64,000 nucleotides of DNA. Origin: Streptomyces sp. NRRL B-24484. GTDB lineage: Bacteria; Actinomycetota; Actinomycetes; Streptomycetales; Streptomycetaceae. How positions within the stretch are numbered: the first letter of the stretch is position 1; each line of letters starts with the position of its first letter. The notes under the pieces are model-generated. The model was given only the letters and a program-made list of their open reading frames with translations. It searched no databases and was not told the origin of the DNA. Positions 22,612 through 29,675 of this stretch are shown here, piece by piece. The translations under genes and the position numbers were made by a program. The stretch is taken from assembly GCF_000717715.1 (NCBI RefSeq), contig NZ_JOAI01000001.1:1-64000 (forward strand). The letters run 5' to 3'.

Positions 22612-23532
22612 ATGAAGCGTCACGGCTGGCTGGACCGGATCCGGCAGCTCGATCCGGAGACCGACTACGCGGAGATCTACCGGATCAGCAGCTGGTACGA
22701 GTTCCCGTGGGACACCAACCAGTCGCTCGGCTTCGCCCTCTACCGCACCTACGCGGTGCCGTCCATCGGCCGGCTGCTGGCCCGGACGGGAGAGTTCACC
22801 GGCCGCGCGCAGAAGCGGTACGACGACACCGTGCTGATCCTGGAGGCCGTGCTGGAGCACGGCTTCGGCTCGGAGCAGGGGCGTGAGGCGATCCGCCGGA
22901 TGAACGGGATGCACCGGCGGTACGAGATCTCCAACGAGGACTTCGTCTACGTCCTCGCCACCTTCGTGGTGGTGCCCAAGCGCTGGCTGGACGACTACGG
23001 CTGGCGCCCGTACTCCGCGCACGAGGTCCGCGCCGCCGTCAACTACTACCGCGAGCTCGGCCGGCACATGGGGCTGCGGGACGTCCCGGAGACGTACGAG
23101 GGGTTCGAGCAGCTGCTGGACGCCTACGAGGAGGCCAACTTCGCCTTCGACGAGGGCGGCCGGGCGGTCTCCGACGCCACCCTCGACCTCACCGCGAGCT
23201 GGTACCCGCGCCCGCTCGGTGCCCAGATGCGGCGCTCCTCGATCTGCCTGCTGGACGACCCGCTGCGGGAGGCCTTCGGCTACCCGCGGCCGCCGGCCGT
23301 GCTCACCGCACTGGTCCGCGGCGGGATGCGGCTGCGGGGCCGGCTGGTCCGGCTGCTGCCGCCGCGCCGCAGGCCGCACCTGGCCCGGGACGGCCGACAG
23401 GTGCGCGGCTACCCCGACGGCTACCGCATCTCCGAGCTCGGGACGTTCGAGGCACCGGCCGCCGGGCCCGCAGAGGGGTCCGCCGCGGGCCGGAGCGGCG
23501 GGGGCTGCCCCTTCGGCGCCGGGGCGTCCTGA
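22612..23532 (+). CDS. MpaB-family oxygenase (DUF2236)
   Basis: Protein of 306 residues of the oxygenase MpaB/DUF2236 family, related to latex-clearing protein Lcp and fungal MpaB, which cleave unsaturated chains using heme. The diagnostic opening (about residues 17-47) contains YRISSWYEFPWDTNQSLGFA and YAVPSIGRLL, followed by a conserved MHRRYEISNEDFVYVLATF and RRSSICLLDDP. GGAAGG lies 6 bases before the ATG at 22612; the overlapping ATG 22609 is the alternative. The tail after residue 270 is disordered and Gly/Ala rich. Natural substrate unknown. Confidence 0.85.
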   Translation: MKRHGWLDRIRQLDPETDYAEIYRISSWYEFPWDTNQSLGFALYRTYAVPSIGRLLARTGEFTGRAQKRYDDTVLILEAVLEHGFGSEQGREAIRRMNGMHRRYEISNEDFVYVLATFVVVPKRWLDDYGWRPYSAHEVRAAVNYYRELGRHMGLRDVPETYEGFEQLLDAYEEANFAFDEGGRAVSDATLDLTASWYPRPLGAQMRRSSICLLDDPLREAFGYPRPPAVLTALVRGGMRLRGRLVRLLPPRRRPHLARDGRQVRGYPDGYRISELGTFEAPAAGPAEGSAAGRSGGGCPFGAGAS

Positions 23533-23581
23533 CGCGCCGCCGCTCCCGGGCGCTGTCGGTGGCCCGTGCCAGGCTGGCGGG

Positions 23582-24178
23582 ATGACCGAGAACCCCGAGA
23601 AGTCCGACGGCCCGGCGACGGAGAACCCCGTGCCCGCGATCCCGCCGCAGAACTACTCCCAGACCTGGGACGACGGCGGCGCCCGGCCGGCCCTCCCGCT
23701 GGTCGGCGACGAGCGGGAGATCCTCACCGCCTACCTGGAGCACCACCGCGAGACGCTGGCCCTCAAGTGCGCCGGGCTGACGCCCGCGCAGCTGTCCGAG
23801 CACGCCGTGCCGCCGTCCCGGCTGACCCTGCACGGGCTGCTCCGGCACCTCGCCGGGGTCGAACGCTGGTGGCTGCACCTGCAGTTCGCCGGGCTGCCGA
23901 CGGAGATGCTCTACTACTCCGACGACGACCCGGACCAGGACTTCGAGAGCCTGGACGGCGACCCGGCCCAGGCACTGGCCGTCTGGCGGGCCGAGTGCGA
24001 GCGCTCCCGGGAGATCGTCGCCGCCGCCCCCTCCCTGGACGTCACCGGCGTGCACCGGGCCACCGGGCAGCCTGTGTCGCTGCGCCGCATCCTGGTCCAC
24101 ATGATCGCCGAGTACGCCCGTCACGACGGCCACGCCGACCTGCTGCGCGAGCGCCTCGACGGCGCGACCGGCTACTGA
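23582..24178 (+). CDS. DinB-family protein (DUF664)
   Basis: Four-helix-bundle protein of 198 residues of the DinB/YfiT-like superfamily. The helix containing LTLHGLLRHLAGVERWWL carries the first metal-binding His, and RILVHMIAEYARHDGHADLL carries the C-terminal His pair. In actinobacteria many relatives are mycothiol-dependent transferases, but the substrate here is unknown. CAGGCT lies at -12 to -7 of the ATG, with no ribosome-binding site, so a leaderless transcript is possible. Confidence 0.85.
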   Translation: MTENPEKSDGPATENPVPAIPPQNYSQTWDDGGARPALPLVGDEREILTAYLEHHRETLALKCAGLTPAQLSEHAVPPSRLTLHGLLRHLAGVERWWLHLQFAGLPTEMLYYSDDDPDQDFESLDGDPAQALAVWRAECERSREIVAAAPSLDVTGVHRATGQPVSLRRILVHMIAEYARHDGHADLLRERLDGATGY

Positions 24179-28318: not shown

Positions 28319-28393
28319 GCCCCCGGCCCGGGCGGCGGGCGGGCCGGGCGAGGGCCCGGCCACCACCGGGTCGCGGTCCGTTACGCTGGTTGC

Positions 28394-28468
28394 GTGATCC
28401 TTCTCGTCAGCCGTCGCCACGTGGACCTGCTCCGCGTCACGAGCATGTCCTGTCGACGCTCCGGCTGA
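28394..28468 (+). CDS. 24-residue leader peptide, cysteine-attenuator type
   Basis: GTG-initiated ORF of 24 codons whose peptide contains LLVSRRHVDLLRVTSMSCRR. It matches the short actinobacterial leader peptides with conserved RRHVDL(x)R and a Cys near the C-terminus that are usually found before sulfur-assimilation genes and are thought to sense cysteine supply by translation. TACGCT occupies exactly -12 to -7 of the GTG with no ribosome-binding site, so it is probably leaderless as well. It sits 137 bases before the 2OG oxygenase start, and a hairpin lies between. Confidence 0.72.
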   Translation: MILLVSRRHVDLLRVTSMSCRRSG

Positions 28469-28551
28469 TCCCGCTCGTCCTCCGCCCTTCGGGCACACAC
28501 CCTCCCCCGGCCCCGCTGCACCGGCCACACCCGGCGCGGCAGCGGCAGCGT

Positions 28552-28578
28552 CCCCGGCGACCGCCGGGCCCGCCGGGG
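28552..28578 (+). promoter_or_regulatory. hairpin between leader peptide and oxygenase
   Basis: CCCCGGCG pairs with CGCCGGGG (8 bases, 11-base loop), ending 27 bases before the oxygenase ATG. It could be the switchable structure of an attenuator, but no competing structure was computed. Confidence 0.35.
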
Positions 28579-28604
28579 CATTCGACACCCAGGTGATGTC
28601 ACCC

Positions 28605-29675
28605 ATGACCCAGCAGTCCCGTCCCACCGGTTCCACCGGACCCTTCGACGTCCGCGCCGGCGACCGCGCCGAGAACCTCCCGGTCATCGACCTCTCGCTC
28701 GCCGACGGCAGTGCCGGGGACCGCGCGCGGCTCCACGCGGCACTCCGCGCCGCCGCCACCGACGTCGGCTTCTTCCAGCTCGTCGGCCACGGCGTGACCC
28801 CGGCCGAGACCGTCGCGCTGACCGAGGCGATGCACGCCTTCTTCGCCCTCCCCGAGGCCGACCGGCTGGCCGTGAGCAACCTGAACTCCCCGCACTTCCG
28901 CGGCTACACCCGGACGGGCGACGAGCGCACCGGCGGCAACCGGGACTGGCGCGACCAGCTCGACATCGGCGCCGAACTGCCCCCGCACGTGCCCGGCACC
29001 GGCGAGCCGCCGTACTGGTGGCTGGAGGGCCCGAACCAGTGGCCCGACGCGCTGCCCGAGCTGCGCGAGGCCTCGCTGCACTGGATCGACCGGCTCGGCG
29101 GCGTCGCCCGCCGGCTGCTGCACGAGCTGCTCACCTCGATCGGCGCCCGGCCGGACTTCTACGACGACGCCTTCGCCGGCCACCCGCACCTGCGGCTGAA
29201 GCTGGTCCGCTACCCCGGCACCGCGCCGGACGGCGCCGCGCAGGGCGTCGGCTCGCACAAGGACTACGGCTTCATCACCCTGCTGCTGCAGGACACCGTC
29301 GGCGGTCTGCAGGTCGAGCGCTCGGACGGCTCCTTCCTGGAGGTACCGCCGATGGAGGGCGCCTTCGTGGTCAACCTCGGCGAGCTGCTGGAGGTCGCCA
29401 CCGACGGCTACCTGAAGGCCACCAGCCACCGGGTGGTCAGCCCGCCCGGCGCCCGCGAGCGGTTCTCGGTGCCGTTCTTCTACAACCCGCGGCTGGACGC
29501 GCACATCGAGCCGCTCGAATTCCCGCAGGCGCACCACGCCCCCGGCGCCACCCAGGACCCGGCGAACCCGCTGTTCGCCGAATTCGGCCGGAACGAGCTC
29601 AAGGGGTACCTGCGGGCGCACCCCGAGGTCACCCGCCGCCACCACGCGGACCTGCTGCCACTGACCGCCGCCTGA
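28605..29675 (+). CDS. 2-oxoglutarate/Fe(II) oxygenase, isopenicillin N synthase family
   Basis: Non-heme iron oxygenase of 356 residues. The N-terminal DIOX_N domain reads LPVIDLSLADG through VGFFQLVGHGVTPAETVALT. The catalytic domain has the iron ligands His-x-Asp in VGSHKDYGFITLL and the distal His in ATSHRVVSPPG, and the co-substrate-binding Arg-x-Ser in RFSVPFFYNP. The family name does not imply penicillin synthesis; most members are of unknown substrate. ATG 28605 has AGGTG 9 bases upstream; GTG 28593 and ATG 28596 are alternatives. The upstream cysteine-type leader peptide suggests a link to sulfur metabolism. Confidence 0.9.
   Translation: MTQQSRPTGSTGPFDVRAGDRAENLPVIDLSLADGSAGDRARLHAALRAAATDVGFFQLVGHGVTPAETVALTEAMHAFFALPEADRLAVSNLNSPHFRGYTRTGDERTGGNRDWRDQLDIGAELPPHVPGTGEPPYWWLEGPNQWPDALPELREASLHWIDRLGGVARRLLHELLTSIGARPDFYDDAFAGHPHLRLKLVRYPGTAPDGAAQGVGSHKDYGFITLLLQDTVGGLQVERSDGSFLEVPPMEGAFVVNLGELLEVATDGYLKATSHRVVSPPGARERFSVPFFYNPRLDAHIEPLEFPQAHHAPGATQDPANPLFAEFGRNELKGYLRAHPEVTRRHHADLLPLTAA

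Follow-up and report, generated by a model that had tools for sequence, protein, structure and literature searches.

An invariant TGT codon in a cysteine-type leader peptide ahead of an isopenicillin-N-synthase-family oxygenase in Streptomycetaceae: a candidate attenuator in sulfur metabolism

Among the closest described systems to the locus studied here are the leaderless short open reading frames of mycobacteria that carry a run of cysteine codons near their end and lie ahead of sulfur genes (Ms4527A, NCBIfam NF042936), as presented in the accessible part of PMC4633059; Canestrari 2020, on the same cysteine-rich short ORFs, is mentioned in the portion of PMC13236596 available to us. Earlier cysteine leader candidates were described by Seliverstov 2005 (PMC1262725) as runs of cysteine codons before cys operons in Mycobacterium and Propionibacterium and before cbs in Bifidobacterium. 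In the available portion of that paper, Rho-dependent termination is considered for the mycobacterial leaders and called a weak prediction, and neither an oxygenase nor a Streptomyces cysteine leader is named. A further family, NF042934, is catalogued as "putative leader peptide" (cis_reg_atten).

In this study, we followed up a leader peptide predicted in a genome of Streptomyces sp. NRRL B-24484, within the whole stretch of 64,000 nucleotides that was analysed (hereafter the window). Direct reading bore out the elements that had been called there, namely a -10 box TACGCT with a six-base gap to a GTG at 28394 and a 24-codon ORF containing a cysteine codon (Table 1). Like the NF042934 family, the window leader combines a profile match at the cut-off with leaderless spacing, the core RRHVDLLR, and a cysteine near its end, and, like the candidates of PMC1262725 in the part of that paper seen by us, it has no intrinsic terminator. 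It differs from the Ms4527A family in having one cysteine codon instead of a run, and its similarity to that profile is weak (25.6 bits, cut-off 45). Before the leader start, T at -12, A at -11, and T at -7 were conserved in 46, 46, and 51 of 63 Kitasatospora loci, and in 50, 52, and 53 of 59 family loci outside Kitasatospora, respectively. Given this conservation, the leader transcript is predicted to be leaderless.

Table 1. Features of the leader and oxygenase region, in positions of the window.
Feature	Position	Strand	Remarks
-10 box TACGCT	28382..28387	+	predicted leaderless promoter; read directly
Leader-peptide ORF VILLVSRRHVDLLRVTSMSCRRSG	28394..28468	+	GTG start, 24 codons, TGA 28466-28468
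Cys codon TGT of leader	28451..28453	+	putative control codon
C-rich, G-poor stretch	28469..28543	+	candidate rut-like stretch; (C-G)/(C+G) 0.40
8-bp stem	28552-28559 CCCCGGCG with 28571-28578 CGCCGGGG	+	mutually exclusive with the GC hairpin
Conserved GC hairpin	28553..28568	+	upstream of oxygenase start
IPNS-family Fe(II) oxygenase	28605..29675	+	DIOX_N and 2OG-FeII_Oxy (PF14226, PF03171), 356 aa

The window leader scored 27.3 bits against NF042934 (cut-off 27) when submitted as an ORF with GTG read as M, but 25.4 bits, under the cut-off, when the whole genome was searched in six frames, so that the profile match on its own is borderline. Seven further cysteine-bearing leaders were found in this genome, four over the NF042934 cut-off and three below it (24.9, 21.9, and 19.4 bits). 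The genes behind these seven are mostly of sulfur-related types. SsuE, which scored over its cut-off, is one of them, and an SsuA-like binding protein, which stayed below the SsuA cut-off, is another. The remaining five are a cysteine synthase (some 0.4 kb further on, the intervening stretch being outside the scan), a rhodanese-domain protein, a cysteine-dioxygenase-family protein, a nitrite/sulfite reductase-type gene for which no NCBIfam model exceeded its cut-off, and an acyl-CoA-dehydrogenase-type gene that we read as possibly SfnB/DszC-like. None of the genes identified behind leaders in this genome encodes MetY. In contrast to its kin, the window leader stands before an oxygenase to which no sulfur role has been ascribed, and its C-terminal part reads SMSCRRSG as opposed to the SA.C type of two of the other leaders (L154 and L155; locus numbers are our own). 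L158, which like its neighbours scored up to the NF042934 cut-off, has no cysteine at the control place and was dropped as a cysteine leader; L163-L165 were dropped as weak matches.

At E 1e-60 or better, an ortholog of the oxygenase occurs in all but one of 70 genomes of the window's own genus, taken to be Kitasatospora (69/70); at E 1e-90 or better, one occurs in 139 of 249 sampled family genomes, Kitasatospora included. Upstream DNA was read for 70 of the 71 Kitasatospora matches, leaving out a second, partial copy in genome G039, and for all 71 other family matches. Absence of the leader ahead of orthologous oxygenases, which the original prediction had named as a finding that would speak against it, was not what we observed: with a leader HMM at a threshold of at least 25 bits, which was trained on ten leaders from these same loci and so finds its own kind by design, the leader was in place at 63/70 Kitasatospora loci and at 60/71 loci of other Streptomycetaceae, the latter divided into 60 of the 64 with an oxygenase identity of at least 60% and none of the seven below 60%. 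At all 123 of these 141 family loci, the match was on the right strand, 78-365 nt ahead of the point where the oxygenase match begins. As a control, a search of both strands over the other 751,362 bases of the loci gave only four HMM matches, all on the opposite strand (L231, L232, L233, and L235); those in L231-L233 stand ahead of metY, and the retrieved sequence of L235 stops short of the gene ahead. Given 123 placed matches at 141 loci against four elsewhere, the association between leader and oxygenase exceeds chance.

The leader was missing, by the same threshold, at seven Kitasatospora loci (L123, L126, L128, L129, L135, L137, and L153) and, among the other family loci with at least 60% identity, at L203, L210, and L212, while L213 lacks this leader type. 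Absence at 7 of 70 Kitasatospora loci could be taken to favor a conserved promoter and 5' region that happens to contain an incidental ORF, with no cysteine control at all. We regard this as very improbable, given that the peptide is conserved at the residue level over several genera with synonymous change, and given the NF042934 match, the sulfur context, and the TGT rule described below.

At three of the seven loci (L128, L135, and L137), the leader frame has decayed with promoter and start still recognisable, which would represent natural loss of the putative control. At L126 and L129, the place of the leader is taken by a short GTG/TGT stretch, possibly a truncated leader, behind a TAATCT or TAACCT box. 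A MOSC-type gene lies upstream of the oxygenase at L203 (1549-2094, by Pfam) and at L210, L167, and L168 (by tblastn), L203 and L210 being loci in which the leader is missing. The Catenulispora copies (L055, L058, L060, and L063) also lack a leader, and the two that were placed in the tree, L055 and L063, sit inside the Kitasatospora clade; this suggests that the Catenulispora oxygenase was transferred without the switch. A Catenulispora neighbour considered as a solute-binding protein was rejected as such, being a GH3 hydrolase.

The cysteine codon of the leader was TGT in 63 of 63 Kitasatospora leaders and in all 60 other-family leaders of the HMM set (123/123 overall). These 60 comprise 58 among 59 leaders that were read together plus L196 and L208, which were read separately; the 59th leader of that set is the other-type leader in L213, which likewise carries TGT. 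For comparison, in nearby genes called by a simple gene caller, TGT made up 69 of 630 cysteine codons in L035-L069 (mostly Kitasatospora) and 155 of 1069 in L166-L236, or 11-15% over both sets. Other invariant residues of the leader vary synonymously, with histidine encoded by CAC in 61 and CAT in 2 Kitasatospora leaders, and by CAC in 46 and CAT in 13 others. The same codon was used by 8/8 NF042934-type matches of this genome with a cysteine at the control place, window leader included (L154-L157 and L159-L162), and by 15/15 further leaders read in related loci. The latter were chosen from leader matches, with L212 and L233 (copies) and a 9-bit match in L266 left out; the L213 leader mentioned above is one of these 15. 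Several cysteine codons elsewhere inside these peptides are TGC. Invariant TGT is a rule beyond NF042934 membership, and was found in every leader read with a cysteine at the control place.

A single tRNA-Cys would read UGU by wobble. To judge from the TGT rule, the choice between synonymous codons may form part of the sensor in a family of actinobacterial leaders. Our literature search found no published report of such a UGU/TGT control-codon rule; the opposite preference, UGC, is described in the accessible part of PMC8632094 for a cysS leader of Rhodobacterales.

Plain codon-counting attenuators need less peptide conservation than is seen in the RRHVD..R leader. The residues ahead of the cysteine are conserved at the residue level with synonymous change, and there is one control codon and no run of cysteine codons, all of which would suit an arrest peptide, in which nascent RRHVD..R stalls the ribosome on a ligand or redox state and the cysteine codon only places the stall. 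We consider an arrest peptide of this kind improbable, given that the codon itself is invariant, which points to decoding, and that the leader family precedes mostly sulfur-related genes. Control by ribosome stalling at UGU is the likely alternative.

The leader stop is separated from the likely oxygenase start, ATG 28605, by 136 bases (alternative starts are ATG 28596 and GTG 28593). The first part of this spacer is C-rich and G-poor, and this property is shared: over at most 75 bases after the leader stop, (C-G)/(C+G) skew averaged 0.43 in the 63 Kitasatospora loci and 0.38 in 54 of the 59 others, and was above 0.3 in 62/63 and 47/54 of them, respectively, compared to a background mean of 0.03, with 4% above 0.3, in 296 upstream regions. 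The skew after the other leaders of this genome was weaker (0.14-0.28). Such a stretch fits Rho loading. We consider the chances evenly balanced that expression is controlled by Rho-type termination rather than by hiding of the start site.

Further downstream, the 8-base hairpin noted in the original prediction is present as a stem, although a shorter, overlapping hairpin is better conserved (Table 1), and by eye the longer stem is not kept as 8 bp across all alignment rows. In the shorter hairpin, 90.7% of cells were paired versus at most 50.5% when the structure was slid along the alignment. Its inner pair was C-G in 12 rows, U-A in 5, and A-U in 1, with 16 of 34 rows unpaired in that register, at least partly due to a shifted register. 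The number of further pair types did not stand out, being reached in 438 of 500 shuffles. Given that the structure was chosen after seeing the alignment and that shuffles were equally rich in pair types, support for this hairpin as conserved with some covariation is modest. RNAalifold over the whole 5' region returned almost no covariation (term -0.1). An intrinsic terminator was rejected, as no U run follows either stem; after the shorter hairpin comes CCCGCCGGGG. Rfam gave nothing credible near the leader (best match 19.9 bits versus a gathering score of 72.2, E 0.16), and in 13 related loci, including six with an importer-methyltransferase operon and six with metY, it returned only tRNA and the L31 leader.

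The gene downstream had been called an isopenicillin-N-synthase-family oxygenase, which agrees with both Pfam domains scoring over their cut-offs and with the iron ligands H218, D220, and H275 and an RxS motif, identified by alignment to solved relatives. It matches PF14226 and PF03171 only, and thus not PF02668 of the taurine dioxygenase TauD. Isopenicillin N synthase itself (1bk0) scored 62 bits in sequence comparison, versus 192 for 9ovh. The closest solved relatives are PDB 6jyv, PaIPNS of P. aeruginosa, and 9ovh, the reconstructed ancestor Anc357 (E 5e-50 and 1.8e-55, respectively), which share the aligned HxD...H and RxS motifs. According to the available part of PMC12329707, which describes both, PaIPNS has no known function; it binds 2-oxoglutarate and produces succinate, no substrate being known.

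Sulfur-poor proteins are expected in a sulfur-starvation response. The window oxygenase has no cysteine and 3 methionines in 356 residues. Cysteine was absent from the tblastn-matched region at 70/70 Kitasatospora loci and 59/64 others (at least 60% identity), and methionine made up 0.64% and 0.39% of it, respectively, versus 1.48% and 1.59% in nearby called genes, counts that are not independent, as the orthologs share ancestry. Six outgroup sequences had 1.16% cysteine and 2.85% methionine. Given that about 8% of nearby genes have no cysteine in their first 350 residues, a single cysteine-free protein is by itself a weak sign. Seventeen class relatives without metY were also low in cysteine (0.18%) and not low in methionine (1.36%), so the low cysteine content of the oxygenase may be partly inherited.

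In the window itself, no sulfur gene adjoins the oxygenase: the gene upstream is of acyl-CoA-ligase type, and the downstream ORFs have no Pfam match or are of the GntR type. A mycothiol-S-transferase-family gene (PF04978) is found about 4.4 kb upstream (23219-24178), and at several Kitasatospora loci besides this one, an ORF sharing that C-terminal end terminates directly before the leader or what remains of it.

Sulfur genes appear among the relatives. In L231 (3998-6346), an oxygenase is fused to the O-acetylhomoserine sulfhydrylase MetY (TIGR01326 605.6 bits, cut-off 495.1; PF01053), adjoining a divergent metY-metX pair with a leader ahead. Long ORFs with the same metY match occur in L232-L235, the domain scan having covered L231 only. 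Among the matches listed, 1 of 25 public proteins (P0002) has the fusion's domain pairing; 15 of these 25 relatives of the oxygenase half (within P0003-P0018) carry a NUDIX domain (PF00293) instead, and P0021 carries GNAT-type domains. Unfused metY lies next to the oxygenase in L230 and next downstream in 7 of 40 class loci outside the family (L246, L258, L262, L265, L268, L273, and L274; 40 of 46 matches were fetched and 6 left out). A cysteine leader precedes the oxygenase in four of these seven, with 28.4 bits in L258, 36.2 in L265, and weak matches in L262 (10.7) and L273 (13.1). The fetched flanks of the other 33 class loci held no metY, with a weak 36% match in L255 uncounted and less than 1 kb downstream in L244 and L261.

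Moreover, a homocysteine S-methyltransferase gene lies just upstream of the oxygenase in 8 of 64 loci (L035-L098), in L085 in the order binding protein, permease, ATPase, homocysteine S-methyltransferase (NF007020 351.7 bits, cut-off 215), oxygenase. The leader was not found at these eight loci, and the three of them placed in the tree are nested in the leader clade, as if operon membership had replaced the leader. A leader was also sought at the head of the importer-methyltransferase operon and none was found, in stretches that begin only a few hundred bases before the operon. In L213, an SsuA-family binding protein (over cut-off) and a leader of a different type come before the oxygenase. 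Three further relatives have one of the following genes no more than about 3 kb away: a TauD-family gene (L086), an SsuD-like LLM gene (L088), or an SfnB/DszC-like gene (L089), the last two as matches below curated cut-offs.

We found no paper tying this oxygenase type to homocysteine S-methyltransferase in Streptomyces and, among titles and abstract beginnings, none linking it to O-acetylhomoserine sulfhydrylase or to sulfur starvation with a leader peptide. MetY is reported as raised (log2 2.9-3.1) in Rhodococcus growing on dibenzothiophene as sulfur source, in the accessible portion of PMC8557817.

These comparisons support the suggestion of the original prediction that the oxygenase belongs to the cysteine or sulfur-starvation response, through the targets of the other leaders, the MetY fusion and adjacency, the importer-methyltransferase operon, and the cysteine-free protein. 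Judged from sequence comparison, the oxygenase is very probably a member of a cysteine/sulfur regulon. What the enzyme contributes there is another matter. With a true cysteine attenuator in place, it could make or modify a sulfur metabolite, for example by oxidizing a thioether amino acid or a MetY product, or aid the cell under sulfur shortage otherwise, without releasing sulfur: the MetY fusion is compatible both with an enzyme that acts before MetY and with one that acts after it, and the nearest natural solved relative, 6jyv of P. aeruginosa, has no known function. We think such a role rather unlikely, given that the other leaders here, as far as their targets were identified, mostly precede genes of assimilation and scavenging types and that TauD-family, SsuD-like, and SfnB/DszC-like genes occur near relatives. 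That the oxygenase is instead a scavenging enzyme that frees sulfur is a tentative reading, to which we give somewhat less than even chances, and an organosulfur compound as its substrate is a guess.

On balance, the oxygenase, which comparison assigns to sulfur metabolism, is most likely controlled by a leader peptide of a known family, and it is probable that the leader acts as a cysteine-sensing attenuator of a sulfur-scavenging gene. In the mechanism that we propose, transcription would start at the leader GTG, as the -10 spacing suggests. When charged tRNA-Cys is plentiful, the ribosome would pass the single UGU and leave at the stop, and Rho, acting on the exposed C-rich stretch, or the GC hairpin would halt expression before the oxygenase. 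When cysteine is short, the ribosome would stall at UGU, perhaps aided by the conserved nascent RRHVD..R, and the oxygenase would be made. With Fe(II), O2, and probably 2-oxoglutarate, the enzyme may then oxidize an organosulfur compound, and the thiol, sulfide, or sulfite thereby freed could be taken up by MetY or cysteine synthase.

A bolder proposal, which we hold to be unlikely in its entirety, is that O2-dependent, nearly cysteine-free oxygenases of actinobacteria cleave thioether or methylthio C-S bonds and pass the thiol to MetY, and that in Streptomycetaceae expression is set by leader peptides whose one cysteine codon has to be UGU, the codon that would serve as the sensor. The accessible part of PMC12552129 describes a methylthio-alkane reductase that, where sulfate cannot be had, releases the methionine precursor methanethiol from organosulfur compounds. 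The likeness to the oxygenase would be one of logic only, as that reductase is a nitrogenase-like, anaerobic, and unrelated protein. If the proposal is true, thiol handover to MetY would sometimes take place within one fused protein, and the oxygenase would provide an aerobic counterpart of methylthio-alkane reductase salvage.

In our study, a leader peptide could place an enzyme of unknown job in a regulon, and the MetY fusion, the importer operon, and the sulfur-poor protein composition lend this placing independent support. An oxygenase that is common across Kitasatospora and the family Streptomycetaceae thereby gains a testable function.
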